Below are positions 44,983 through 58,637 of a stretch of DNA of 64,000 bases, one piece after another. This DNA comes from Sedimentibacter hydroxybenzoicus DSM 7310. GTDB lineage: Bacteria; Bacillota; Clostridia; Tissierellales; Sedimentibacteraceae. Below the pieces are notes generated by a model that saw nothing but the letters and a program-made list of their open reading frames with translations, had not been told where the DNA came from and ran no database searches. The stretch covers positions 1-64,000 of the forward strand of contig NZ_JACBNQ010000019.1 in assembly GCF_013403245.1 (NCBI RefSeq), given 5' to 3'. Position 1 is the stretch's first letter; each line of letters opens with the position of its first letter. A program made the position numbers and the translations under genes.

Positions 44983-45426
44983 ATGAACGACAAATATATA
45001 ATATACTTTATAAGCAGAACACGAAAAAAGATGCTGAAATTCCTTGAGCGCAAGCTTACAGAACATAACATGAACGATATTATCACCTCTCACGGTAATA
45101 TTCTTACCGCCTTGTATAATAACGGAGGTAAGCTTGCTATGAACAAAATCGCCAAGCTGATAGGCAAGGATAAATCCACCGTTACCCCCTTAATCAATAA
45201 GTTATTGCAGCTCGGATATATTGAAAAAATTCAAGATGAAACGGATAAACGGATTACGTATATTGTTTTATCAGAGCAGGGTCATCAGCTAAAGCCAAAG
45301 TTTGACGCAATTTCGACCCAGATATATGAAACAGCATATAAGGGATTTACCAAAGAAGAAAAAGAAACCTTTTTGCGATTGTTAAAAAAGCTGAATATGA
45401 ATTTTACCGAGCTGCCTGATGCATAA
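44983..45426 (+). CDS. MarR family transcriptional regulator
   Basis: A 147-residue MarR repressor. The winged helix is clear: GNILTALYNNGGKLAMNKIA, LIGKDKSTVTPLINKLLQLG and the wing YIEKIQDETDKRITYIVLSE. The start at 44983 with GGAGG is preferred over an upstream in-frame extension of 22 codons that runs through the operator region. It is divergent from the oxidoreductase gene and almost certainly represses it. Confidence 0.93.
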   Translation: MNDKYIIYFISRTRKKMLKFLERKLTEHNMNDIITSHGNILTALYNNGGKLAMNKIAKLIGKDKSTVTPLINKLLQLGYIEKIQDETDKRITYIVLSEQGHQLKPKFDAISTQIYETAYKGFTKEEKETFLRLLKKLNMNFTELPDA

Positions 45427-45427
45427 G

Positions 45428-47434
45428 CTAAGATATTGTCTTCAGATATTTTTCCAACCACATAAGAATTTCTTTAAGCCGCCGTATTTTGTGCTTAGGT
45501 GCACCTGAACGAGATAATTCATGACCTTCATTTTTGAATAAACACATTCTGCTTGGAACTCTCCTGCTTTGCAATGTCGAGAATAATTGCATGGCACCAT
45601 GGATTGAGCATCTGTGATCTTCAAAGGAATGTAAAATAAGTGTCGGTGTTTTAATATTCAAAGCATATTTGAACGGAGACTGCTCCCACACATTTTCTCT
45701 GTTGCTCCAGGGATTTCCGCCATATGCTCCTATTGTACTCCATATGCTGAAGTCCGTTGCACCGAAGGATCCGTTTACATCAACAATTGATCTCATCGTG
45801 ACGGCAGCCTTAAATCTGTTCGTGTGACCTATAATCCAATTAGTCAGATATCCCCCGTAGGAACCGCCCATAACTGCCAGTCTCTCTGAATCTATTTGAG
45901 GATAAAGGGATAAAATATAATCCGTGAATTCCATTACATCGGTATAATCGACAGTTCCTCTTCTGCCGTTTATATCAGCAAACCTTTCTCCTCTTCCTGA
46001 CGAGCCTCTTGGATTGCAATAAAAAACAAAATACCCCTCAGAAGCAAGCAGCTGCATTTCATGACTGTATACGTATGAATAGCTGGTTCTCGGTCCTCCA
46101 TGTATCTCCAACACTCCCGGATATCTTTTATTTTCATTGCAGTCACGGGGCTTTATTACAAAGCCGTCAATTCTTATGCCATCTGAATTTATAAATGAAT
46201 GGGGTACAGGAGTAACCGCGTCTATATTTGTATCATTAAAATTACTCAATTTTTTCACTTCACCCGTTATCTCATCAAGCCTGTAAAGCTCTTGCAGATT
46301 ATTTTCCAGCAGACCTGTTAAAAACACAGTTTTTTTGTTGGCTGCAAAGCAGTCAGCGGATATATTGCTTTTAGATAATCTCTCTTTATTTCTTCCGTTC
46401 CATACATTTATATAGCTTGTTTGCTCATATGTGGTCAAATAATATAATTTATCTCCGGACACCTTAAAGGTTGTTCCTCCGTTAATTCTGACATCGCTTG
46501 ATATTTTTGCTCCGAAATCCTCGTCGTCATGTGAATAAGCCAGCTTCATTTCTCCGGTCCTTATATTAATAACATATAAATTATGGTTTGGAAAAGGACT
46601 GTATCCGTCCCAGGGATGTGCTGCAGCTATTAAGCTGTCTTCATAAAAATCAAGACCCATTATTTGATATTTGCCCCGTTCCAGAATGCAGGCTGTTTCG
46701 TCTTTTTCTATATCGTAAACGTAAATTCCATGCGATCTGTCATAAATCTGTTTATAGCATGAGCCTGAGAATGCAATACGCTTACCGTCCTCACTTATTG
46801 CGCTGTGGGAGGTCTCAAACAGAGAGTCTGTAATATTCTTCAGCTCATCGGTGCTTATCCTGTATAAGTATAATGAATTTCTTTTCTTGTTTACATATCC
46901 TCGAGAGTCAATGAAAAACGGAAGCTCGTCACACACCTCGTAATCTTGTTCCTCTTTGTATTCCATCAATCCCTTACGCTTATCATCTCCGGACATCCCT
47001 TCAAAATCAGGTCTGTAATTATCCCTGACGGAAGATATAAGTAATAAATCTCTGTCAACCTGCTTAGCTCTTGCATTATGTAAGGGAAGCTCAAACAATC
47101 TTTTCCTCTCGTCATAGCCGTTCAAAACTCCCTGTTTGTAAAATACCGTTAAGTATTCTCCCGATTTTACTCTTTCAACATCGGAAGGCTCACTGATTTC
47201 AGCATATATTACCGCATCACCTGAAATAAACGAAGCACTTTTCACCTTACCCGAATTCGTAAGCCGTTCCACACTATTACCGGCTGCATCGTACCTCCAT
47301 ATGTCAGATAAATAATTGTTATCTGACATATTCGGCTCTGTTACACAAAACACTACACAGCTGCCATCATCGTTAACCTCCAACGAGGACAGAGACTTAT
47401 AATTTTTAAAATCATCAATCTTTATTTTATTCAT
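45428..47434 (-). CDS. S9 family prolyl-oligopeptidase-type peptidase
   Basis: A 668-residue serine peptidase. A beta-propeller region (about 1-400) is followed by the alpha/beta-hydrolase catalytic domain (about 410-668). The nucleophile is in LAVMGGSYGGYLTNWIIGH, the Asp is near HSFEDHRCSIHGAMQLFST, and the His is in NEGHELSRSG. Acylaminoacyl-peptidase-like enzymes of this kind cleave short or blocked peptides. The start at 47434 is chosen over a longer in-frame extension (21 residues) on homology. It lies 2 bases from the converging MarR stop and is followed, in the other direction, by RidA and the peptide-binding lipoprotein. Confidence 0.9.
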   Translation of the reverse strand: MNKIKIDDFKNYKSLSSLEVNDDGSCVVFCVTEPNMSDNNYLSDIWRYDAAGNSVERLTNSGKVKSASFISGDAVIYAEISEPSDVERVKSGEYLTVFYKQGVLNGYDERKRLFELPLHNARAKQVDRDLLLISSVRDNYRPDFEGMSGDDKRKGLMEYKEEQDYEVCDELPFFIDSRGYVNKKRNSLYLYRISTDELKNITDSLFETSHSAISEDGKRIAFSGSCYKQIYDRSHGIYVYDIEKDETACILERGKYQIMGLDFYEDSLIAAAHPWDGYSPFPNHNLYVINIRTGEMKLAYSHDDEDFGAKISSDVRINGGTTFKVSGDKLYYLTTYEQTSYINVWNGRNKERLSKSNISADCFAANKKTVFLTGLLENNLQELYRLDEITGEVKKLSNFNDTNIDAVTPVPHSFINSDGIRIDGFVIKPRDCNENKRYPGVLEIHGGPRTSYSYVYSHEMQLLASEGYFVFYCNPRGSSGRGERFADINGRRGTVDYTDVMEFTDYILSLYPQIDSERLAVMGGSYGGYLTNWIIGHTNRFKAAVTMRSIVDVNGSFGATDFSIWSTIGAYGGNPWSNRENVWEQSPFKYALNIKTPTLILHSFEDHRCSIHGAMQLFSTLQSRRVPSRMCLFKNEGHELSRSGAPKHKIRRLKEILMWLEKYLKTIS

Positions 47435-47527
47435 AACACACCCTGTCTTTCTTTTGTTTATATTTGATTTATATTTATATATTATATAAGCCGCCAATTT
47501 TTAATTTCAGCGGCTTATACTATTAAT

Positions 47528-47887
47528 TTATTTTAAAGCAGCAGTCATTACGATTCCTACAAGGAAGCATTCCGGTGCCGTCATTCCTGTTGAGGTAGCA
47601 CGTGCAGGCTGAAATCCATCCTCAACCCATTCTTCCCATGCCTTGTTAAAGTCATCTATCATTGATGCTTCTCTTATAAAAATGTCTGCTCTAAGTATAT
47701 GTTTCTTATCCGAATCAAATTGCTCCAACAGCTCATCGTACCTGCAAAGCAGTGCCCTTGCCTGCTCATACATGGTCATCGGTTCTTTTTGAGCAGCTGC
47801 GGCTACGTGTATCTCGAAGTATAATACTCCATTACACTCAACTACTCTGCTGGCCCTCTTTTTTACATCATATCTGTTAATTATCAC
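47528..47887 (-). CDS. RidA family protein
   Basis: A 119-residue trimeric RidA/YjgF-type protein, which clears reactive enamine/imine intermediates from amino acid breakdown. Segments include VVECNGVLYFEIHVAAAAQK, a cluster KHILRADIFIREASMIDDFN and PARATSTGMTAPECFLVGIV, where the Arg that contacts the substrate carboxylate is expected. The start is a GTG with AGGAG. The gene lies between the peptide-binding protein and the peptidase, so release of amino acids from peptides could be linked to removal of toxic by-products. Confidence 0.88.
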   Translation of the reverse strand: MIINRYDVKKRASRVVECNGVLYFEIHVAAAAQKEPMTMYEQARALLCRYDELLEQFDSDKKHILRADIFIREASMIDDFNKAWEEWVEDGFQPARATSTGMTAPECFLVGIVMTAALK

Positions 47888-47934
47888 GTTAAATCTCCTG
47901 TTGTCTTCTATATTTTACATGATTACATGTTTTA

Positions 47935-49530
47935 TTATTCTGCAAAGTAGCATGCAGCATAATTTTGATAATTCATCGGGAACTCCATGGTATACCCTCT
48001 CAGTGTACTTGTGGTTCCTATACATACCTTCGCGCTGTACAACGGTATCCACACGGTATCTTCGTACATCAGTTCCTGAATTTCATCATACAATTCAACA
48101 CGTTTGTCCCAATCACTTTCAGATGATGCTCTGTTTAACAAATCATCCATCTCAGGGTTATTGTAGTTAACTCTGTTTCCTCCTACACCTTGAGCATCCG
48201 AATACAATTTACTCAATGTATAGTTAGGATCACGCAGTGTATTGTTGAGTGTAGTAATTGCGGCAAATTGCTCTCTTGAATTTAAGAAAGGAGTATAAGT
48301 GGATGTTTCCATTTCAGAAAGCTCCAAATCTATGTTTGCTTCCTTCAGCATTGCCTGAAGAACCTCTCCAACCCTTCGGTTGTCAGAAGACTGATAAAAT
48401 GCCAACGGAAAAGAAATACCATCTGGATATCCGGCTTCTGCCAACAAGCTCTTTGCTTTTTCTACATCATACCCAAAAGCAGCAGTGTCTGCCTTATATC
48501 CGGGTACGGTGCTTGGGAGAAAGCTGTTAGCTGTTAACGCAGCATCCATTAAGCAAGCCTTTCTCAATGCATCATTATCAATTGCGTGAGCTATAGCTCT
48601 TCTTATTTTTGTGTTACTGAGCAATTCACGGTCAAAATTTAATGCCAGAAATGTAACTGCAACAGATTCATTGGTATATAATGAGAGCTCAGGATTGCTT
48701 TCAACCTGCTCTAATGAGATTCCCGGAACATCCTGCATTATATCTATTCCGCCTGTCTCCAGCTCAAGTAAACGGCTGTTAGCTTCAGGAATCAAACGAA
48801 TGTTTATTGTTTTAAGCTTTGCTTTTTCTCCGTGATAATCATCAAATCTTTCTATCTCAATGTTTGCTCCTTGATTCCATTCAACAAATTTAAACGGTCC
48901 CGTACCACATGCAACCATATCTATGTTATCCACGTTTTCGTTATAAAATTTTTCATTGAATATGCCTAAGTTTACATTGCATATAGATCTTATGAACGGG
49001 GCAAAGGGAGTCGATGTTCTAAGTATAAGTGTATAGTCGTCTATTATTTCGAAATTATCGGGATCGAACCCTATTGTATTTGATTTTGTTCTCGGATTTT
49101 CACAAAAATGCTTCATTGAGAAAACCACATCACTCGCTTTTAATTCTTCTCCGTTGTGAAATTTGACACCCTTTTTCAAAACAAATTTATAGGACAGATC
49201 ATCTATCTGCTCGTAGGTTTCTGCTAAAACAGGATAAATGTTACCTTCCTTATCCATCTGTACCAGGGTTTCATATACGTTTGCCGCGAACTGAGCTCCC
49301 GGTACCTTACCGTCATTAGCAGGGAATAATGATTGCGCTTCGCCGAAGGCCCCAATTGTCAGAGTATCCTTTGATGAAACCTTTTCATCACCGGAATTAT
49401 TTACTTCTTCATTATTGCCACCGTCATTCTTTGGTTCATCGGAGCTGCCATTACTGCATCCCGCCAATAGTGTCAATACAAGAATCAACGCCAAAATACT
49501 CATAAATAGTTTTTTTGCTTTTGTTTTCAT
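47935..49530 (-). CDS. oligopeptide/dipeptide ABC substrate-binding lipoprotein (family 5)
   Basis: A 531-residue secreted receptor. The lipoprotein signal ends at LLAGCSNGSS (Cys near 25). The family-5 body includes LTIGAFGEAQSLFPANDGKV, KFVLKKGVKFHNGEELKASD, VVFSMKHFCENPRTKSNTIG and a C-terminal dipeptide-binding fold. The transporter genes themselves are 4 kb away on the other strand across the shared promoter region, an unusual split of a peptide ABC system. The start at 49530 uses AAGGATG. Confidence 0.92.
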   Translation of the reverse strand: MKTKAKKLFMSILALILVLTLLAGCSNGSSDEPKNDGGNNEEVNNSGDEKVSSKDTLTIGAFGEAQSLFPANDGKVPGAQFAANVYETLVQMDKEGNIYPVLAETYEQIDDLSYKFVLKKGVKFHNGEELKASDVVFSMKHFCENPRTKSNTIGFDPDNFEIIDDYTLILRTSTPFAPFIRSICNVNLGIFNEKFYNENVDNIDMVACGTGPFKFVEWNQGANIEIERFDDYHGEKAKLKTINIRLIPEANSRLLELETGGIDIMQDVPGISLEQVESNPELSLYTNESVAVTFLALNFDRELLSNTKIRRAIAHAIDNDALRKACLMDAALTANSFLPSTVPGYKADTAAFGYDVEKAKSLLAEAGYPDGISFPLAFYQSSDNRRVGEVLQAMLKEANIDLELSEMETSTYTPFLNSREQFAAITTLNNTLRDPNYTLSKLYSDAQGVGGNRVNYNNPEMDDLLNRASSESDWDKRVELYDEIQELMYEDTVWIPLYSAKVCIGTTSTLRGYTMEFPMNYQNYAACYFAE

Positions 49531-49577
49531 AACGTCACATCCTTCAAAATTATTCACCTTAATAAGTGTTAGCAATT

Positions 49578-49606
49578 ATATTACAACAAACGTTATGCTA
49601 TGTCAA
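49578..49606 (-). promoter_or_regulatory. promoter for the peptide-binding / RidA / peptidase operon
   Basis: On the minus strand, TTGACA (49601-49606) and TAATAT (49578-49583) are 17 bases apart, about 50 bases before the start of the binding-protein gene. Confidence 0.75.
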
Positions 49607-49790
49607 CATTTTTTCATATGCAACTTTTTTATCACCAAATAGCTTGGTGACAAAATACACCTTTCACTCTCCACGTCTTTATTATTATATATTTATCTTG
49701 AAATTTACCAATATTCTTATATTTTTCCATGTTATACATTTGTTTTCGGCATTATGTTTTTGTAATAATTTTTTATCATATAAAAATTTA

Positions 49791-49819
49791 TTGACATATT
49801 TTATGCTGCAAGGTATAAT
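49791..49819 (+). promoter_or_regulatory. consensus promoter for the regulator / TPR / Dpp operon
   Basis: A perfect TTGACA (49791-49796) and TATAAT (49814-49819) are 17 bases apart on the plus strand. This is the strongest promoter seen in the window. Between the two divergent promoters (49607-49790) no gene is seen; the A+T-rich stretch may hold regulator sites. Confidence 0.8.
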
Positions 49820-49863
49820 AAAAACAATTTTAATATACTATAAAAAGGAAAGGGGATAATATT

Positions 49864-50568
49864 TTGTTAGAAGAAAACATTTCTACACTAACAGATTTCT
49901 TATCGGACAGCCTTGGAAGCAAGTATGAAATAACCGTATACGAGATAGGTTTATCAGATGATGCAAAGGTAATCGATATCAGAAACAGACATATCAGCAA
50001 GCAGTCCTTGAACTCAGCACTTCCAAAATTTATTTCGGATGCCATTAAAGAAAATCATTTTGCAAAAAAACCATACAAGGAATTCTTAATTTCATCAAAC
50101 AAGGAAGGCACAATAATCAAAACCTCGGTATTGTACATTAAAGGAACCAATCTCTCTGATTATCTGTTGAGCATAAGCAGTTACCATAACATAAGCTATG
50201 ATTTTGACGGTGCCTTTAACAGCAAAGAGGAGTCAAAGCTCAACGCGCAAGTCCCGGCTGCTATGAAACAAAATGTACAAGCCCATGCAGCAGATAATGA
50301 ATTTTCGTCAAGCATGACTCTTGATGATATCATTAAAACGAAGGTGGAGGAAATATTGTATGACATGGATATAACATCATCAAATTTAACCTTCAAGCAA
50401 AAGACAGATATAATTGAAAAGCTTTACGAGGCTGATATTTTTAAGGTAAAGGGTTCCGTGCCATTGGCAGCGGACTATTTAAAAAGCTCTGAATCCTCAG
50501 TGTATAGATATATACGTCAACACGAAATTAAATTAATGGAAGACAACACTGATAACTTTTTAATGTAA
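49864..50568 (+). CDS. YheO/DauR-type transcriptional regulator
   Basis: A 234-residue regulator. The N-terminal part (10-120) resembles the YheO PAS-like domain (YEITVYEIGLSDDAKVIDIR; GTIIKTSVLYIKGTNLSDYL). The C-terminal part is a DauR-like HTH (QKTDIIEKLYEADIFKVKGS, VPLAADYLKSSESSVYRYIR). DauR itself controls D-arginine use in Pseudomonas. The start is a TTG at 49864 with AAAGGAAAGGGG. It is the first gene of the TPR / Dpp operon and probably controls it and the divergent binding-protein genes. Confidence 0.88.
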   Translation: MLEENISTLTDFLSDSLGSKYEITVYEIGLSDDAKVIDIRNRHISKQSLNSALPKFISDAIKENHFAKKPYKEFLISSNKEGTIIKTSVLYIKGTNLSDYLLSISSYHNISYDFDGAFNSKEESKLNAQVPAAMKQNVQAHAADNEFSSSMTLDDIIKTKVEEILYDMDITSSNLTFKQKTDIIEKLYEADIFKVKGSVPLAADYLKSSESSVYRYIRQHEIKLMEDNTDNFLM

Positions 50569-50578
50569 GGGGGCAATT

Positions 50579-51433
50579 ATGCATACCATCAAGGAAAGAA
50601 TAATAACACAAGCTGTAGAAAGAACAGACGTTGCAACACTCAATCAGCAATTATACACCATTAATTCCGATATTGAATTTTCAGATATTTTAAAATCATC
50701 CTGGAAAAGTCTTCAGAGAAACACCGATGACCCTGAAAAATGGATAGAAACAGGCAGAAACTTCAAGCGTCAAAATCTTCACAGAGAAGCAATCGAAGCT
50801 TTTTCTCAGGGTATAACGAATGATTGTTTCAATTATTTGTTGTTCCGACACAGGGCACATTCATATCTGAATATATGCAGATATAAGGAAGCTGTGGCAG
50901 ATTTCAAATTATCCGTACGCATGAATCCCTTCCATTTTGACAGCTGGTACCTGATGGGAATTTCATATTATTTAATGCAAAGATACGAAGAAGCTTCGGA
51001 TATATTTAAGCAGGCACTGATCATTGCCGACAGTGATGCGGAAATGGTTTGTACGGTTTACTGGAGGTGGTTTTCTTTAATGCTTATTAACAATAAGCAG
51101 GAGGCAGACGAGCTTTTAGAGAGGGTGAAACCTAATCTGAAATTAGTTTCATGTGAAGCTTTTTATAAGGTTCTGCTTATATGCAAGGGACTGCTGACTC
51201 CCGAGCAGGTTTTAAATATTCCCGACAATTCTTACACAAACGCTCACTCTATTATGTTTTACGGAGTGGCACAATATTATTATTTAAATGGTGACATAGA
51301 AAAGGGTAATCAGGTAATTGAAGATTTACTCCGAAACGAAGAGGAAAGAAGATGGGCAGGCTTTGCTTATCAGGCGGCAATTTTAGAAAAAAACCGAAAT
51401 TTTAATTCGAAAGGTGCAAGCTATGAAAATTAG
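50579..51433 (+). CDS. TPR protein 1 of 4
   Basis: A 284-residue protein with tetratricopeptide repeats: HREAIEAFSQGITNDCFNYL, CRYKEAVADFKLSVRMNPFH and QRYEEASDIFKQALIIADSD. There is no signal peptide or transmembrane segment, so it is cytoplasmic. The N-terminal 50 residues are not repeat-like. AAGGGG precedes the ATG. It is the first of four consecutive TPR genes between the regulator and the peptide transporter and is the most divergent. The role is not recognised. Confidence 0.85.
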   Translation: MHTIKERIITQAVERTDVATLNQQLYTINSDIEFSDILKSSWKSLQRNTDDPEKWIETGRNFKRQNLHREAIEAFSQGITNDCFNYLLFRHRAHSYLNICRYKEAVADFKLSVRMNPFHFDSWYLMGISYYLMQRYEEASDIFKQALIIADSDAEMVCTVYWRWFSLMLINNKQEADELLERVKPNLKLVSCEAFYKVLLICKGLLTPEQVLNIPDNSYTNAHSIMFYGVAQYYYLNGDIEKGNQVIEDLLRNEEERRWAGFAYQAAILEKNRNFNSKGASYEN

Positions 51434-52241
51434 GAATGAATCTTTATTTGAAGTTTTAGCCGACAAAAATTCTCAGCTCATTTTGAACAGAACTCCCTGC
51501 GACAAATACAGCAGTGAAATAATTCAAATCATTGATGATATAAAAAACGACGGACCTTCAGAAGAAAAATACATAAGTCTGATAAATGAATTTCACAGAA
51601 TAGGCTTGTTCAGAGAAGCAGTTGAGGTTAGCTGTGAAGCAATATCAACCGATCCCTTTAACTGGGGTTTTCATTTGTTGAGAGGCTATAACAATCTGCA
51701 CATTGAGCAAATTGCCGAAGCAGCTGCAAATCTTGAATTTGCATCAAGAATGAACCCCGAGTCCTTTGAAGCTCAATTATACGGCGGTATTGCGCACTTT
51801 TTGGCAGAAAATTATTCTAAATCAAATTATTTCTTTAATCAGGCATTGGAGCTAAGCAATACATTCAAGGATAAGTGCGACGTAATCCTTTGGTATTGGA
51901 TTTTTTCTTCTAAACAGGAAAACGGAGAACAAATGAAAGAAATTTTATCTTCAATTGATTTCTCTGAGGATGCAAGCGATAATTCTGATTTTTCGTCCAT
52001 TGATATGTGCAAATTGTACAAAACCAATGAATTGAATATACTGACAAAAATCAAAACAAAGGAACAAATGGATAAATATAAATACTTCATTGCATGGTAT
52101 GAGATTATCACAGGTAATCGTGACAAGGGATATTCATTGCTGAATGATTGTTCAGAAAATAGTATTTTTTCAATCCAATCTGTTGCAGCAAGGAAGGATC
52201 TTAAGAAAATATTCATACGATGGACTCCGGATGAGTTTTAG
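51423..52241 (+). CDS. TPR protein 2 of 4
   Basis: A 272-residue cytoplasmic TPR protein (GLFREAVEVSCEAISTDPFN, then AEAAANLEFASRMNPESFEA and HFLAENYSKSNYFFNQALEL). The start overlaps the stop of the preceding gene by 11 bases, so expression is coupled. AAAGGTG precedes the ATG. It shares the FNxGFHLLRGYNNL-type first repeat with the first gene (N-[CP]-F-N near the repeat end) and is probably an ancient paralogue of it. Confidence 0.85.
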   Translation: MKIRNESLFEVLADKNSQLILNRTPCDKYSSEIIQIIDDIKNDGPSEEKYISLINEFHRIGLFREAVEVSCEAISTDPFNWGFHLLRGYNNLHIEQIAEAAANLEFASRMNPESFEAQLYGGIAHFLAENYSKSNYFFNQALELSNTFKDKCDVILWYWIFSSKQENGEQMKEILSSIDFSEDASDNSDFSSIDMCKLYKTNELNILTKIKTKEQMDKYKYFIAWYEIITGNRDKGYSLLNDCSENSIFSIQSVAARKDLKKIFIRWTPDEF

Positions 52242-52268
52242 AACAATGAAATACAGGAGGAAAAAGCA

Positions 52269-53075
52269 ATGGTAAAGGAATCACAGATTAAAATAATGAA
52301 GGAAGGTCTTGCCACTAAGGGTCCCATCGAAATGGACAAGGATATGCTTAAGGAGGTTGAAGAGCAACTTAAGGACAATCCTTACGATTTTTTAGCGCAT
52401 TGTGCGAGAGGAGTTTTATACTTCAATTATGACTTTGAAAAAGCTATTGAAAGCTTCTCTGATGCTTTGGCAATAAATCCTTTTGATTCCAATCAATATT
52501 ATAACAGAGGCAGGAAATTTTTATCTCTGGATAAATACAGTCAGGCGTTATCTGATTTGACAGTTGCAGTCAGAATAGACGATAAGGACAGCTGGAAGTG
52601 GCATTTTTTAGGAGTTGCATATTTTGGTCTGAACAGATTCAAGGATGCAATAGACTGTTTCTTCAAATCTATAGATCTACACTTCATTAACAAGACAAAC
52701 AATATACCACCCGAGGTGGAATGGATCTGGTTATCCTATGTGCAGCTTGGAGAATTTGACAAGGCAAACGAAGCCTTAAAGCTTGTGGACGAGGATACAC
52801 CGGTTCAGGGCGGTGATATCAGCTATAAAAGAAGGATATTGTTAAAAAGAAATATCATATCCGCCTGCGAATTTGAATCAAGTATTAATTATGAAAGTGA
52901 CAGCCACGCTGCAACAGAGCTGTACGGTCTGGCAAACTACTATCAGCATATAGAAAAGAACCAGAAGAGGGTTATTGAAATTTTAGAAAAAATATTAAGC
53001 ATTAAGACAAGTCACCACGCTTTTGCATATAAAATGGCAAAGCATGATTATTCGTTATTAGTCAGCTTAGATTAA
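52269..53075 (+). CDS. TPR protein 3 of 4
   Basis: A 268-residue TPR protein with the N-terminal motif IKIMKEGLATKGPIEMDKDM, then FEKAIESFSDALAINPFDSN and YNRGRKFLSLDKYSQALSDL. It is a close duplicate of the next gene. A 3' part TNNIPPEVEWIWLSYVQL is also shared. AGGAGG lies before the ATG. The shared KGPIEMD segment is not a standard TPR element and may be a paralogue-specific interaction site. Confidence 0.88.
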   Translation: MVKESQIKIMKEGLATKGPIEMDKDMLKEVEEQLKDNPYDFLAHCARGVLYFNYDFEKAIESFSDALAINPFDSNQYYNRGRKFLSLDKYSQALSDLTVAVRIDDKDSWKWHFLGVAYFGLNRFKDAIDCFFKSIDLHFINKTNNIPPEVEWIWLSYVQLGEFDKANEALKLVDEDTPVQGGDISYKRRILLKRNIISACEFESSINYESDSHAATELYGLANYYQHIEKNQKRVIEILEKILSIKTSHHAFAYKMAKHDYSLLVSLD

Positions 53076-53113
53076 TATAAACACAACATTAAATATTATC
53101 GGAGGAATTTTTT

Positions 53114-53926
53114 ATGAGTAAAATCGGAGAAAGACAAATCAATATTATGAAGAAAGGATTGGCAGCTAAGGGTCCGATAGAAATGGATTGGGATATGCTG
53201 AAAGAGGTTGAAGAAAAGCTTGCTGAAAATCCTAGTGATTTTTACGGCTGGGCCGCAAGAGGTATACTGTATTTCAACGAGGATTTTGAAAAGGCTATAG
53301 AAAGTATATCACAGGCACTTGCATTGCAACCCTTTAATGCAGATCAATACTACAACAGAGCAAGAAAATTCCTGTCTCAGGACAAATATGTACAAGCTAT
53401 GTCCGATGGAGTTATGGCAACAAGGATTGATACGAAGGATGCATGGAAATGGCACTTTTTAGGTGTGGCATACTTTTTCTTAGACAGATACGAGGATGCC
53501 GTTGAATGCTTTAAGAAATCCATAGCTCTTCATGTTGAAAACGGTACTAACAATACACCTCCCGAGGTTGACTGGATATGGATGGCGTATATGCGAAGCA
53601 ACCAGGTTGAAAAAGCTCGCGAGTCACTTGATTTGATGAAGTCGGATACGGAAGTTGAACGCGGAGATTTGATGTATAAAAAAAGAGTGTTGCTTTACAA
53701 AGGAGAAATGACATTAGAGGAATTCGATAAGCAGGTAGAAAGAGATTATCCAAAGAGAGCTATTACGGAGCTTTACGGAGCTGCCGCATACTGTCACTAT
53801 ATATTGAAGGATAATAAGAAGGCTGTTGAATATTTAGATGAACTGCTTGCTTATGATACTTCACATCATGCCTTCGGATATAAAATGGCTCTTGAGGAAA
53901 GAGACCTGTGGTCTAAAGAAATATAG
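53114..53926 (+). CDS. TPR protein 4 of 4
   Basis: A 270-residue TPR protein, a close paralogue of the previous gene: INIMKKGLAAKGPIEMDWDM, then FEKAIESISQALALQPFNAD, YNRARKFLSQDKYVQAMSDG and TNNTPPEVDWIWMAYMRS. It is the last of the four and ends 45 bases before dppB. A recent duplication of genes 3 and 4 is evident. The role is unknown; it may modulate peptide transport or the regulator. Confidence 0.88.
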   Translation: MSKIGERQINIMKKGLAAKGPIEMDWDMLKEVEEKLAENPSDFYGWAARGILYFNEDFEKAIESISQALALQPFNADQYYNRARKFLSQDKYVQAMSDGVMATRIDTKDAWKWHFLGVAYFFLDRYEDAVECFKKSIALHVENGTNNTPPEVDWIWMAYMRSNQVEKARESLDLMKSDTEVERGDLMYKKRVLLYKGEMTLEEFDKQVERDYPKRAITELYGAAAYCHYILKDNKKAVEYLDELLAYDTSHHAFGYKMALEERDLWSKEI

Positions 53927-53970
53927 CACAAATAAATTATTCAACAAACTACCAATGGGGGTTGTAAAAT

Positions 53971-54909
53971 ATGCTAAAATATATCATTCGTCGTATTATT
54001 ATGATGATACCTGTAATGTTGGGCGTTACATTTGTAGTTTTTACGATGCTGTACATAACGCCCGGTGATCCGGCCCAAACGATTTTAGGCGAAAATGCAA
54101 CAGAAGAAACAATTGCCGAGCTGCGTGAGGAAATGGGGCTGGACAGACCGTTCATAATTCAATATTTTGATTATGTGTGGAAAATAGTTACAAAAGGTGA
54201 TTTCGGAAGGTCTTATACTAACCAGCAACCGGTTATAAATGCACTCATTGACAGATTTCCAAATACTATAATACTTGCGGTCTCGTCGGCAGCCATAGCT
54301 GTCATACTGGGATTGATTTTGGGAGTAGTATCTGCCGTTAAGCAGTACTCAATTTTTGATAACTTTTCAATGACCCTTGCATTGATAGGTCTTTCTATGC
54401 CAAACTTCTGGCAGGGTTTATTGTTAATGCTTCTGTTTTCTTTAAAGTTAGGCTGGTTCCCCGTATCAGGCTTTACAACATGGAAACACTTGATTTTACC
54501 TGCTTTAACGGTCGGTACCAGTTCGTGTGCCATTATTGCAAGGATGACACGTTCAAGTATGCTGGAAGTTGTTCGTCAGGATTATGTTGATTCAGCAAGG
54601 GCAAAAGGACAAAAAGAATACATTGTAATAATCAAACACGCTTTAAGAAATGCCATGATCCCGATTATTACTGCAGTCGGTCTGCAGTTTGGGGCTATGC
54701 TCGGCGGCTCTGTAATAACCGAGTCCGTATTTTCAATACCCGGGATCGGAAAATTAATGGTTGATTCAATCAAGGCGCGTGATTATCCGTCTGTGCAAGC
54801 AGGCGTGCTGTTAATAGCTCTTTCATTCTGCGTTGTTAATTTGCTTGTTGATTTACTTTATGCGGCTACCGATCCTCGGATGAAATCAAACATTGAAGGT
54901 AAAGCATAG
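53971..54909 (+). CDS. dppB: peptide ABC transporter permease (DppB/OppB type)
   Basis: A 312-residue permease with six helices. MLKYIIRRIIMMIPVMLGV and YITPGDPAQTILGENATEET are typical, and the EAA loop (VVRQDYVDSARAKGQKEYIV, then HALRNAMIPIITAVGLQFGA) contacts the ATPases. It is the first of four genes dppBCDF, which form one transporter whose binding protein is encoded on the opposite strand. Confidence 0.92.
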   Translation: MLKYIIRRIIMMIPVMLGVTFVVFTMLYITPGDPAQTILGENATEETIAELREEMGLDRPFIIQYFDYVWKIVTKGDFGRSYTNQQPVINALIDRFPNTIILAVSSAAIAVILGLILGVVSAVKQYSIFDNFSMTLALIGLSMPNFWQGLLLMLLFSLKLGWFPVSGFTTWKHLILPALTVGTSSCAIIARMTRSSMLEVVRQDYVDSARAKGQKEYIVIIKHALRNAMIPIITAVGLQFGAMLGGSVITESVFSIPGIGKLMVDSIKARDYPSVQAGVLLIALSFCVVNLLVDLLYAATDPRMKSNIEGKA

Positions 54910-54925
54910 GATAAGGAGGAAAATT

Positions 54926-55813
54926 ATGTCTGCTGTTAATAACACTGCAACCACACGTGTTCAGTATAAAAAAAGAAGTCAAACAAAAGAAATCTGGCGT
55001 AGATTCAGAAAGAATAAAAGCTCTATTATTGGTATGATCATCATTGCAATATTAATAATATGTGCAATATTTGCAGAAAATATCGCACCCTATGACCCTG
55101 TTAAGCAAGACTATGCTCACACGTTAGAACATCCAAGCAAGGAGCATATATTCGGCACAGATGAGTTTGGAAGAGATATTTTCAGCAGAATTATATTCGG
55201 TGCACGAACATCTCTGTCAGTAGGTCTGATTTCAGTTTCCATATCCTGCATAGTAGGTGGAGTTATAGGTGCCATATCAGGATACTTCGGAGGAAGGATA
55301 GATACATTCATAATGAGATGCATGGACGTCTTTTTAGCAATTCCAAGTATATTGTTTAACATTTCCATCATAGCGGCTTTAGGACCGGGAATAGTGAATA
55401 TGATGATTGCCGTAGGAGTTTCTAACATTCCGAGATACTGCAGAATTATGAGAGCCTCCGTGCTTCAGATAAAAAACCAGGAATTTATTGAAGCGGCAAA
55501 GGCAGGAGGCGCTTTAGATTTCTTCATAATCACATTCCATGTAGTACCGAATTCCTTGGCGCCCATAATTGTGCAAGCTACCTTGAATGTCGGCTCGGCA
55601 ATCATTGCCTGCGCCGGATTAAGCTTCATAGGTGTCGGTATCAGTCCTCCAACTCCCGAATGGGGCGCCATGTTGTCAAACGGTCGTGATTTATTGCGTA
55701 ATTATTCATATATAACTGCATTTCCGGGTCTGGCAATTATGATTACTGTACTGTCCCTGAACTTAATGGGTGACGGACTGAGAGATGCGTTCGATCCTAA
55801 ACTCAAGAGATAG
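54926..55813 (+). CDS. dppC: peptide ABC transporter permease (DppC/OppC type)
   Basis: A 295-residue second permease subunit with a cytoplasmic N-terminus (IWRRFRKNKSSIIGMIIIA), FGTDEFGRDIFSRIIFGART, and the EAA motif NQEFIEAAKAGGALDFFIIT, then GVGISPPTPEWGAMLSNGRD. The start at 54926 has AAGGAGGAAAATT. It overlaps neither neighbour and lies 16 bases after dppB. Confidence 0.92.
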   Translation: MSAVNNTATTRVQYKKRSQTKEIWRRFRKNKSSIIGMIIIAILIICAIFAENIAPYDPVKQDYAHTLEHPSKEHIFGTDEFGRDIFSRIIFGARTSLSVGLISVSISCIVGGVIGAISGYFGGRIDTFIMRCMDVFLAIPSILFNISIIAALGPGIVNMMIAVGVSNIPRYCRIMRASVLQIKNQEFIEAAKAGGALDFFIITFHVVPNSLAPIIVQATLNVGSAIIACAGLSFIGVGISPPTPEWGAMLSNGRDLLRNYSYITAFPGLAIMITVLSLNLMGDGLRDAFDPKLKR

Positions 55814-55832
55814 CAGCATGCGGAGGTATAAA

Positions 55833-56804
55833 ATGAAAAATGATTACATTTTGGAAATTGAGGATTTAACCGTAAAATATATTACGGAAGACAGCATAGT
55901 AAGTGCTGTTAACAATATGAGTTTAAAATTGGAGCGAGGAAATACTCTTGGTTTTGTCGGTGAAACAGGTGCGGGTAAAACTACAACCGCAAAGTCAATA
56001 ATGCGGTTATTACCTGAACCTCCGACTAAAATAGAGTCCGGTAAAATCATTTTTAACGGTGAAAATATCCTCGAAAAAAGCATCAAGCATATGCAATCAA
56101 TTCGCGGAAACAAGATTTCAATGATATTTCAGGATCCCATGACAGCTCTTAACCCTGTTATTCCCATAATCGATCAGATCGCAGAGGTTATACTTTTACA
56201 TCAAACAAAGGATAGAAAAGCTGCATACAAAAGAGCCGAGGAAATGTTAGAAATAGTCGAGATAAAAAAGGAACGCGGAGAGGAATATCCTCATCAGTTT
56301 TCAGGAGGAATGAAGCAAAGAGTTGTTATTGCCATTGCTCTGGCATGCACACCCGACTTGCTGATAGCTGATGAACCTACTACAGCACTGGATGTTACAA
56401 TACAAGCTCAAGTTCTTAAATTAATGCATGATATTAAGGAAAGCAATAATACCTCAATGATAATGATTACTCACGATTTAGGCATAGTTGCCGAAGCATG
56501 TGATAATGTTGCCGTTATTTATGCAGGGAGTATTGTCGAGTACGGAACGAAGGAAGATATATTTAACAGTCATGCTCATCCTTATACAGAGGGATTGTTT
56601 AATTGTATACCGGATTTATCAAAAACAGAAAGCGAATTAATTCCTATTAAGGGAATTATGCCGGATCCAAGCGACCTTCCCACAGGGTGCAAATTTCATC
56701 CGCGCTGCCCCTATGCTGTAGACCGCTGTTCCAAAGAAGAACCCGAATCAAAGGAAATTTCTGACGGTCACATGGTAAAATGCTTCCTGGAGCACCGCAA
56801 ATAG
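55833..56804 (+). CDS. dppD: peptide ABC transporter ATP-binding protein (DppD/OppD type)
   Basis: A 323-residue ATPase. Walker [11 protein letters not shown], signature [20 protein letters not shown], Walker [21 protein letters not shown] and switch His [10 protein letters not shown]. The C-terminal oligopeptide-transport domain with [14 protein letters not shown] carries the cysteines that in some family members bind an iron-sulfur cluster. The start at 55833 uses CGGAGGTATAAA. DppD and DppF form a heterodimer. Confidence 0.92.
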
Positions 56805-56842
56805 TTTTATTATCTTGGCTAATGTATTAAGGAGTGAGGCTT

Positions 56843-57790
56843 ATGACACAAAAGTTATTGGAAGTAAATAATTTAAAAAAATATTTTGATACTAAAAGAG
56901 GCAAATTACATGCTGTTGACGACGTGAGCTTTTATATATACAAGGGTGAAACCTTAGGAGTCGTAGGCGAAAGCGGCTGCGGCAAATCAACTACCGGCAG
57001 AACAGTTCTGAGACTTATTGAGCCTACCGAAGGAGAAATCTTTTTTGACGGCATCGATATCAACTCTCTTTCTCAAGAGGTTATGAGGAAAAAAAGAAAG
57101 GAAATGCAAATAGTGTTCCAAGACCCCTATTCCTCCTTGGACAGCAGAAGAACCGTGTATGAAAGTATTGAAGAACCTCTCAGAGTTAATAAAATTTTTA
57201 ATAACAGAACTGATTTATCAAACAGAGTATTTGAACTTATGAATACAGTGGGATTGGCAGAACGTCTCGTTAATTCATATCCTCATGAATTAGACGGAGG
57301 GCGCCGTCAGCGCGTTGGGATAGCAAGGGCTTTAGCATTAAATCCCTCCTTTATAGTGCTTGATGAACCCGTTTCCGCATTGGACGTGTCTATACAGGCG
57401 CAAATTTTAAATCTTATGGAAAGGCTGCAGGATAATCTGAATCTGACATATATGTTTATATCACACAACTTGAGTGTTGTAAGACATATAAGTGACCGGG
57501 TTGCTGTTATGTATTTAGGAAAAATTGTAGAGTTAGCCAGTTATAAAAATATATTTATCAATCCTCAGCATCCATATACTAAAGCTTTGCTGTCTGCAGT
57601 TCCTCTGCCGAGAATAGACTTGAAATTAGACAGGATTATTCTTGAAGGAGATGTTCCCAGTCCCATAAATCCGGTCCCGAGATGCAGGTTCTACGGAAGA
57701 TGCCCCGAAAGAAAGGAAGTATGCAAGGGAGATTTGCCTGAGCTTAGAGAAATAGAAGCTGAACACTTTGTTGCATGTCATTTAATCTGA
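56843..57790 (+). CDS. dppF: peptide ABC transporter ATP-binding protein (DppF/OppF type)
   Basis: A 315-residue ATPase. Walker [13 protein letters not shown], signature [19 protein letters not shown] (the DGG variant of LSGGQ common in this subunit), Walker [21 protein letters not shown], switch His [10 protein letters not shown]. The C-terminus has [14 protein letters not shown], again four cysteines. The start at 56843 uses AAGGAGTGAGG. A clear terminator follows. Confidence 0.92.
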
Positions 57791-57802
57791 ATGGATTTAT
57801 TA

Positions 57803-57840
57803 AAATCCTCAAAAACTTGATTTTTGAGGATTTTGCTTTG
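57803..57840 (+). terminator. terminator of the dpp operon
   Basis: AAAATCCTCAAAAA pairs with TTTTTGAGGATTTT, a 14-base stem with a short loop and a final T-rich run. It is the clear end of the 8 kb operon. Confidence 0.85.
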
Positions 57841-57862
57841 CAAATATAAATTAATTTTACTA

Positions 57863-58147
57863 TTAATGTTTAGTTCTTTTCTTATAAACAATATCTAAAA
57901 TAATCGAGCATATAAGAGACGGTAAGCTCGCAGCAAATAGGAGCAATCCCATTACAAATCTTCCTAATGCCTCAAAGCCTTCAGTAGGGGCACTGTACGC
58001 AGTAATGAAATTATATAGCATAAACGGAAACATTACTATTACAGGAATATACTTAATATATCTTTTCTTCTTAAATATATAATTTAAAATAAGTGTCACT
58101 AAAATTGAAACTATTACTACAATAATTAAAACAACATCTATTTCCAT
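57863..58147 (-). CDS. small hypothetical membrane protein
   Basis: A 94-residue protein with three hydrophobic helices (about 5-25, 36-54 and 64-86) and a basic C-terminus. No family is recognised. AAAGGAGG precedes the ATG. It lies after the VOC gene on the same strand (13 bases from its stop) and may be co-transcribed. Confidence 0.65.
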   Translation of the reverse strand: MEIDVVLIIVVIVSILVTLILNYIFKKKRYIKYIPVIVMFPFMLYNFITAYSAPTEGFEALGRFVMGLLLFAASLPSLICSIILDIVYKKRTKH

Positions 58148-58160
58148 AAAAATACCTCCT

Positions 58161-58637
58161 TTATGTCAAATTTGCTCCTGCTTCCTCAAGCTCCTTAATA
58201 ATTATCTTTTTCATTTTCATCATCGCTTGTATTTGAGCATCCGTCTTAACCAGCTCCACCATGTTATGAGGCACTATCTGCCAGAAAAGACCGAACCTAT
58301 CCTTAGCCCAGCCACATTGCTCCGCCTCTTTGACATGTGACAACTTATCCCAGAAGTAATCAATCTCATCTTGTCCTTCACATTCTATTGTCATTGATAT
58401 AGCTTCATTGAAGTGAAAGTACGGACCGCCGTCTAATGCAAGATACCTTTGTCCGTTTAGTATAAATTCAGCAGTAATTATTTTGCCGGACATACCTTTA
58501 AAATGCTCATCAAGATTTTCATCAGGATACTTTACAATATTCTGTATTTCAGAATTGGGAAATACATTCACATAATAATTTATTGCTTCTTCACAATTAT
58601 TATCACCAAACCATAATGATGGTACTATATTTTTCAT
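58161..58637 (-). CDS. VOC family protein (PhnB/YjdN-like)
   Basis: A 158-residue PhnB-type protein of the vicinal-oxygen-chelate superfamily. IVPSLWFGDNNCEEAINYYV, GKIITAEFILNGQRYLALDG, EAISMTIECEGQDEIDYFWD and GWAKDRFGLFWQIVPHNMVE are hallmark segments. Members are often mislabelled as ubiquinone methyltransferases; the true reaction is unknown. AAAGGAG precedes the ATG. Confidence 0.88.
   Translation of the reverse strand: MKNIVPSLWFGDNNCEEAINYYVNVFPNSEIQNIVKYPDENLDEHFKGMSGKIITAEFILNGQRYLALDGGPYFHFNEAISMTIECEGQDEIDYFWDKLSHVKEAEQCGWAKDRFGLFWQIVPHNMVELVKTDAQIQAMMKMKKIIIKELEEAGANLT

Follow-up and report, generated by a model that had tools for sequence, protein, structure and literature searches.

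Four tandem TPR genes beside dppBCDF in Sedimentibacter hydroxybenzoicus: a candidate scaffold between peptide import and hydrolysis

A stretch of 64,000 nucleotides from Sedimentibacter hydroxybenzoicus DSM 7310 (contig NZ_JACBNQ010000019.1, positions 1 to 64,000; hereafter the window) carries four tandem genes for tetratricopeptide repeat (TPR) proteins, TPR1 to TPR4, placed between the gene for a YheO/DauR-like regulator and the dppBCDF genes of a Dpp-type importer. Divergent from this run, on the minus strand, are the genes for a solute-binding protein (SBP), a RidA-like protein and an S9 peptidase. The reading favoured here, with a probability of roughly 0.45, is that the TPR proteins act in the cytosol as a scaffold that joins the importer to a peptidase; it fits best because the TPR gene often keeps company with importer and peptidase genes while the regulator and the class of peptidase change from locus to locus.

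Under the scaffold reading, the locus would be a patchily distributed peptide-scavenging module made up of the lipoprotein SBP, DppBCDF, the S9 peptidase, the RidA-like protein and a local regulator, with the TPR proteins acting as soluble cytosolic adaptors. The TPR groove may hold a partner protein or a peptide, docking the peptidase near the DppD and DppF ATPases, and the docked peptidase would then hydrolyse imported peptides at the membrane. The four TPR proteins, apparently of two subtypes, could form a hetero-oligomeric scaffold; in other hosts a single TPR gene goes with different peptidases (M19, M24). Gene order, co-occurrence in several lineages and the change of regulators are observed; what we infer is that the TPR proteins touch importer and peptidase, what they do there and what the four copies are for. 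Coupling of uptake to hydrolysis is not far-fetched, because in Pseudomonas aeruginosa dppBCDF is preceded by the gene for a putative regulator, PsdR, and by the metallo-dipeptidase gene mdpA, and the hydrolysis of imported peptides is attributed to membrane-associated peptidases (excerpts of PMC4206461).

Genomic company of the TPR genes

The neighbourhoods of ten fetched loci of the TPR family (L005, L011, L012, L041-L046, and L058), a small sample in which several contigs are short, were compared with those of 15 generic-TPR control loci, 14 of them from 13 genomes of the phylum with weaker matches (49-61 bits, partial coverage) and one from genome G551. Genes for SBP, DppB, and DppC occur together in the fetched stretch of 5 of the 10 family loci versus none of the 15 controls (Fisher p 0.005); counted by lineage, with L011 and L012 merged and L045, L046, L058, and one short control dropped, the figures are 4 of 6 versus 0 of 14 (Fisher p 0.003). 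Two of the five family loci without SBP-DppBC are contigs of 3.5 and 5.1 kb, and six controls have only an ABC-ATPase match to DppD. A peptidase gene is recognised in seven of the ten family loci: S9 in L005, M28 in L041, M19 in L011 and L044 (by Pfam) and in L012 and L046 (by likeness), and M24 in L011 and L043 (by Pfam) and in L012 (by likeness). In L005, L011, L012, L043, and L044 an immediate neighbour of the TPR gene encodes a transporter component or a peptidase.

The locus closest to the window in content is L005, from a metagenome-assembled genome (MAG) of an uncultured bacterium, in which SBP, RidA, S9, TPR, and dppBCDF genes run in the same direction with a divergent LysR gene. In L011 (genome G262) and L012 (G567) the order is M19 dipeptidase, TPR, an AstE/AspA-type deacylase (L011 only), SBP, dppBCDF, M24 peptidase, phosphotransacylase, acid kinase, and a PrpR-type sigma-54 activator; Pfam was run on L011, and the genes of L012 were assigned by likeness. 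The single-copy TPR gene of these two loci thus stands in a long cluster (L011:73-19930, L012:1499-19932) that, by eye, also encodes an amidohydrolase and ferredoxin-like and large oxidoreductase-like proteins, with additional oxidoreductase-like genes in L011; to judge from its gene content, the cluster looks like peptide uptake joined with amino-acid fermentation. L043 (G814) has TPR, SBP, and dppBCD genes, with the M24 peptidase gene on the opposite strand, and L044 (G831) has SBP, dppB, dppC, TPR, a GntR-FCD regulator, and M19, followed by a DppD-like match.

The remaining loci are without SBP and DppBC. L045 is the 3.5-kb contig. The stretch of L046 (G617) ends 262 bases beyond the TPR frame, with an M19-like gene on the other side; the frame itself (L046:263-934, G617:C135) holds one TGA, reflecting either a sequencing error or a broken gene. 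In L041 (G721) an M28-type peptidase gene lies 1.7 kb away. L042 (G909) has ABC-type proteins alongside, and its full-length family member (L042:9614-11420), which is away from dpp genes, stands beside a GRDB-like piece of a glycine/betaine-reductase-type protein. In L058 (G306) a distant TPR relative (91 bits) sits beside lar-like genes and overlaps the end of a larC-like gene, after larB- and larE-like genes (L058:6120-9713); we read these neighbours as larE, larB, and larC of nickel-pincer cofactor synthesis.

The TPR family is rare and patchy. With TPR4 as query, 1 of 27 genomes of the taxonomic family and 1 of 243 genomes of the order match, each time the window's own. Profile searches, in which the own genome is included, match 3 of 391 genomes of the class (4 of 391 in a further class search) and 19 of 398 genomes of the phylum at a laxer limit, 6 of them strongly; the same 6 of 398 match at a stricter limit, and since the two phylum searches drew overlapping genome sets, their matches are not independent. 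In the order of G262, 4 of 20 genomes match, three with full-length proteins and one, G551, with a generic TPR protein; searches of 11, 25, and 14 genomes around three carriers matched the carrier alone each time. Scanning genome contigs for two short motifs brought up L005, a close relative, and a single generic TPR protein, and a plasmid search with TPR4 gave no match. L006, a Bacteroidia MAG with a 27% identical partial TPR match, is excluded from the family and the counts. Four copies are found only in the window's genome; the nine other genomes with family matches (the generic match of G551 left out) show a single match apiece at the thresholds applied. In the open-licence literature, as far as its indexed text goes, no paper evidently about this TPR family or pairing tetratricopeptide with dppBCDF was found.

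Sequence and predicted fold of the TPR proteins

All four TPR genes are on the plus strand and encode proteins of 268-284 residues. TPR1 (50579-51433; TPR_2, E 7e-13) is nearest to the L011/L012 type, with 32% identity to the TPR proteins of both loci. TPR2 (51423-52241) is the most divergent member, with only a sub-threshold match to TPR_16 and a BLAST match to the L011/L012 TPR protein (E 7e-22); its ATG start at 51423 is preferred by eye over a GTG at 51414 and gives an 11-nucleotide overlap with the end of TPR1. TPR3 (52269-53075; TPR_1, E 1.8e-14) and TPR4 (53114-53926; TPR_2, E 4.4e-16), which are 50% and 58% identical, respectively, to the L005 TPR protein, form the KGPIEMD subtype. Pfam TPR models thus score above cut-off in TPR1, TPR3, and TPR4 and below it in TPR2; the family profile, whose alignment includes TPR1-4 themselves as rows, TPR2 among them, spans all four almost end to end.

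The (K)GLA-x-KGPIEMD motif and the TNN-x-PPEV segment that the earlier note had picked out are both seen in TPR3 and TPR4. Its view that these two are recent duplicates is rejected: they share 56% identity, and a tree of 13 proteins groups TPR4 with the L005 TPR protein and leaves TPR3 outside (support 94/88, marginally below the 95/80 that the tool requires), within a TPR3, TPR4, and L005 group supported at 100/100. The split between TPR3 and TPR4 therefore seems, from the tree, older than the separation from the L005 lineage. A weakly supported group (64/89) joins TPR1 and TPR2 to the proteins of L041, L042, and L011/L012; TPR2 and the L058 protein are long-branched, and the root serves for drawing only. 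No helix-turn-helix (HTH) domain is fused to any of the four, as the note had stated: Pfam finds no match to an HTH family. The best N-terminal hydropathy is between -0.25 and 0.26, with none strongly hydrophobic, and the proteins are predicted to be without export signal or membrane segment.

AlphaFold models, made with 12 sequences for TPR4 (mean predicted local distance difference test, pLDDT, 89.4; predicted template modelling score, pTM, 0.85) and TPR2 (pLDDT 84.3, pTM 0.82), predict all-helical TPR solenoids with low-confidence N-termini. In Foldseek searches, entries for NlpI take places 1-12 for TPR2 (template modelling score, TM, 0.64-0.71); for TPR4, NlpI is the best full-length natural match (TM 0.60-0.69), behind designed consensus TPR proteins. 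As an adaptor, NlpI binds the protease Prc and docks the substrate of that protease, and it scaffolds endopeptidases (excerpts of PMC5686067 and PMC7049810). The likeness thus lies in the full-length solenoid architecture and in a peptidase-adaptor role, the role proposed for the TPR proteins of the window, although NlpI is an outer-membrane lipoprotein (PMC7049810, in excerpt) and the window's proteins have no hydrophobic N-terminus. On the NCBIfam NlpI model NF008391, which has a cut-off of 250 bits, TPR1, TPR3, and TPR4 score just 16.5, 18.0, and 12.9 bits, and TPR2 is not listed. Because the export feature and the NCBIfam model both fail, the TPR proteins are not members of the NlpI family, and the resemblance is one of architecture.

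A candidate anti-phage function was also rejected: the match to PDC-M16B is weak, is limited to TPR3 and TPR4 (27 and 24 bits), and runs across the TPR repeats.

Scaffold, sensor or regulator partner

The earlier note had offered three roles for the TPR proteins: a scaffold coupling peptide uptake to a peptidase, a receiver of imported peptides, and a modulator of the regulator. The first is the best supported, by the SBP-DppBC and peptidase counts given above; among peptidases the controls were scanned for S9 alone (0 of 15), so that the peptidase link is only partly controlled. Several further observations count against a scaffold. In the window the S9 gene belongs to a separate, divergent transcript. 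The class of peptidase varies among loci, so the docked partner would have to vary too. Neither SBP nor DppBC is seen in the stretches around the full-length members of L041 and L042 or around the distant one of L058. A genus-mate, L099, has a similar importer about 5 kb from its S9 gene (SBP 32%, DppB 50%, DppC 47%, and DppD 58% identical to those of the window) and no TPR gene in the stretch. Lastly, the match to NlpI is low in specificity: TPR solenoids match each other broadly, the comparison was made without a control fold, designed consensus TPR proteins come out on top for TPR4, and identity to NlpI is just 12-19%.

A sensor that fills with peptide and then acts on the transporter fits the data nearly as well as the scaffold, and is nonetheless judged unlikely. 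In such a system the TPR proteins would be cytosolic peptide-binding sensors that gate the transporter at DppD/DppF when an imported peptide fills the groove. TPR genes stand against transporter genes in five lineages including the window (in L011 one deacylase gene separates TPR and SBP), and of the 34 most conserved positions listed, many hold aromatic, histidine, or arginine residues on A helices. In TPR solenoids the A helices face the groove, and this pattern counts in favour of the scaffold as well. The Foldseek match at rank 34 for TPR4 is YrrB, whose entry title cites an unusual peptide-binding site. The recurrence of peptidase genes counts against the sensor, as a pure gate would not need them.

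It is quite improbable that the TPR proteins modulate the YheO-like regulator, relaying peptide supply to transcription. The regulator gene opens the run, 10 nucleotides upstream of TPR1, and the divergent promoters have an operator-like repeat between them; among the loci, however, the neighbouring regulator is of LysR type in L005, PrpR-type sigma-54 in L011, and GntR-FCD in L044. Because the nearby regulator differs in this way, a partnership of the TPR proteins with the YheO-like protein is unlikely, and that role was rejected. The arrangement in which the TPR genes sit between a YheO-type regulator and dppBCDF, put forward in the note as a possible constant of the family, is seen in the window alone, and in L041, L042, and L058 the TPR gene is found without SBP or DppBC in the stretch. 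The window's regulator resembles YheO/DauR-like proteins in carrying both PAS_6 and HTH_22. DauR controls D-arginine use, and the window's regulator differs in being tied to peptide uptake and TPR genes.

That the TPR genes are unrelated passengers, placed beside dpp by chance, is very improbable. Three of the ten family loci (L041, L042, and L058), all on longer stretches, do lack SBP and DppBC, but SBP-DppBC is present in 5 of 10 family loci versus 0 of 15 controls, the window run is held together by overlaps and short gaps, and the TPR protein is 58% identical across the set shared with L005.

Least probable of all is that the TPR proteins are RRNPP-type receptors of imported signalling peptides (Rap, NprR, PlcR, PrgX), the parallel that the note had found tempting: they are predicted to be cytosolic, stand beside a peptide importer, and fall within the receptor range of 250-500 residues (PMC10075063, in excerpt), TPR2 with a sub-threshold Pfam TPR match, but the gaps of 10-44 nucleotides in the window leave no space for a propeptide gene (10-100 residues) beside any of the four, and no Rap/PlcR/NprR-type match appears in Pfam or NCBIfam, among 50 Foldseek rows per model, or among the best 60 of 155 sequence matches, so that this candidate too was rejected.

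Layout, signals and history of the locus

The gene order and coordinates of the run, which open reading frames (ORFs) and Pfam bear out, are those of a tightly packed series: promoter, regulator, TPR1-4, dppBCDF, and a terminator-like hairpin. The regulator (49864-50568, plus strand) matches PF08348 (E 2.6e-10) and PF13309 (E 4.4e-15), both above cut-off, and is the sole PF08348 match in the window's genome. The importer genes, also on the plus strand, encode a DppB-type permease (53971-54909; BPD_transp_1 and BPD_transp_1_N), a DppC-type permease (54893-55813, start at or after 54893; BPD_transp_1 and OppC_N), and DppD- and DppF-type ATPases (55785-56804, start at or after 55785, and 56834-57790; each ABC_tran and oligo_HPY). 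From the regulator to dppB the spacings are 10 nucleotides, the 11-nucleotide TPR1/TPR2 overlap, 27, 38, and 44 nucleotides, and this spacing suggests that the run is a single transcript.

On the minus strand, and absent from the note's account, lie the genes for the SBP, a family 5 peptide-binding lipoprotein of DppA/OppA type (47935-49530; SBP_bac_5, E 2.7e-81) with a hydrophobic N-terminus and an LLAGC lipobox-like stretch read by eye, the RidA/YjgF-like protein (47528-47887; Ribonuc_L-PSP, E 3.9e-10), and the S9 prolyl-oligopeptidase-type peptidase (45428-47434; Peptidase_S9, E 4.9e-54, with Pfam run on 45431-47431). The start of the peptidase is placed at an internal methionine, the longest ORF extending to 47497, and its N-terminus is not hydrophobic (hydropathy 0.73).

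The domains of a Dpp/Opp importer, namely SBP_bac_5, two BPD_transp_1 permeases with OppB/OppC-type N-domains, and two ATPases with ABC_tran and oligo_HPY tails, are all present above Pfam cut-off. The window run differs from known Dpp/Opp systems by its four TPR genes; the excerpted text of PMC4206461 mentions no TPR protein for the P. aeruginosa dpp genes. DppB is above the cut-off of the NCBIfam model Opp2B (nickel transporter permease), at 358 versus 350, and the remaining NCBIfam models listed for DppB, DppC, and SBP are below theirs. The substrate is presumably peptide, because peptidase genes neighbour the importer.

The run begins behind a sigma-70-type promoter (49791-49819, plus strand) that agrees with the consensus at 12 of 12 positions with a 17-nucleotide spacer, confirming the call of the note; the window holds two such exact sites, versus a mean of 0.03 in 30 first-order Markov simulations. 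A promoter-like site for the divergent SBP genes (49578-49606, minus strand; TTGACA-17-TAATAT) matches at 10 of 12 positions. Between the two promoters, outside both likely transcripts, is an operator-like inverted repeat (49627-49655; 12-nucleotide arms, 92% complementary, 5-nucleotide spacer); with up to two mismatches allowed, its core pattern has a single occurrence in the window against 0.33 expected by chance, which is weak alone and makes the repeat a weak candidate operator. An AT-rich ORF of 97 residues (49566-49859, plus strand) covers this intergenic region, the promoter, and the inverted repeat and is probably no gene. The hairpin that had been read as a terminator (57803-57840, plus strand) proves stable, with the segment 57791-57860 folding at -16.4 kcal/mol (z -4.1; none of 200 shuffles equally stable), and it is not among the sites listed by a terminator scan. 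Rfam at gathering scores gave no match in 45000-58500.

The whole set of SBP, RidA, S9, TPR, and dppBCDF recurs in one distant MAG, L005, at identities to the window of 50% (SBP), 61% (RidA), 47% (S9), 58% (TPR4), 60% (DppB), 63% (DppC), 43% (DppD), and 51% (DppF). DppD and DppF of the window are nearer to those of L011/L012 (48% and 55-56%) than to those of L005. All 22 S9 matches outside the own genome, in the taxonomic family of the window, are 30-46% identical, with 46% and 43% reached over partial stretches; the 12 fetched and checked, from 11 genomes, are 33-40% identical, and none of their 12 stretches has a RidA or TPR match. Taken at face value, these identities point to a mixed history; the set may have been transferred as a whole.

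The usual view of a peptide importer takes SBP, permeases, and ATPases to be all that it consists of. At its boldest the scaffold reading, which in this form we regard as doubtful, would make the TPR proteins a dedicated and as yet undescribed class of accessory to Dpp-type importers: a cytosolic scaffold, present here in several copies, that would bind the ATPases and pass peptides directly into a docked peptidase, forming a peptide-uptake metabolon. The recurrence of a TPR gene with importer and peptidase genes would offer direct access to the question of whether uptake and hydrolysis are physically coupled, and the four-copy run of S. hydroxybenzoicus is the richest case in the genomes searched.

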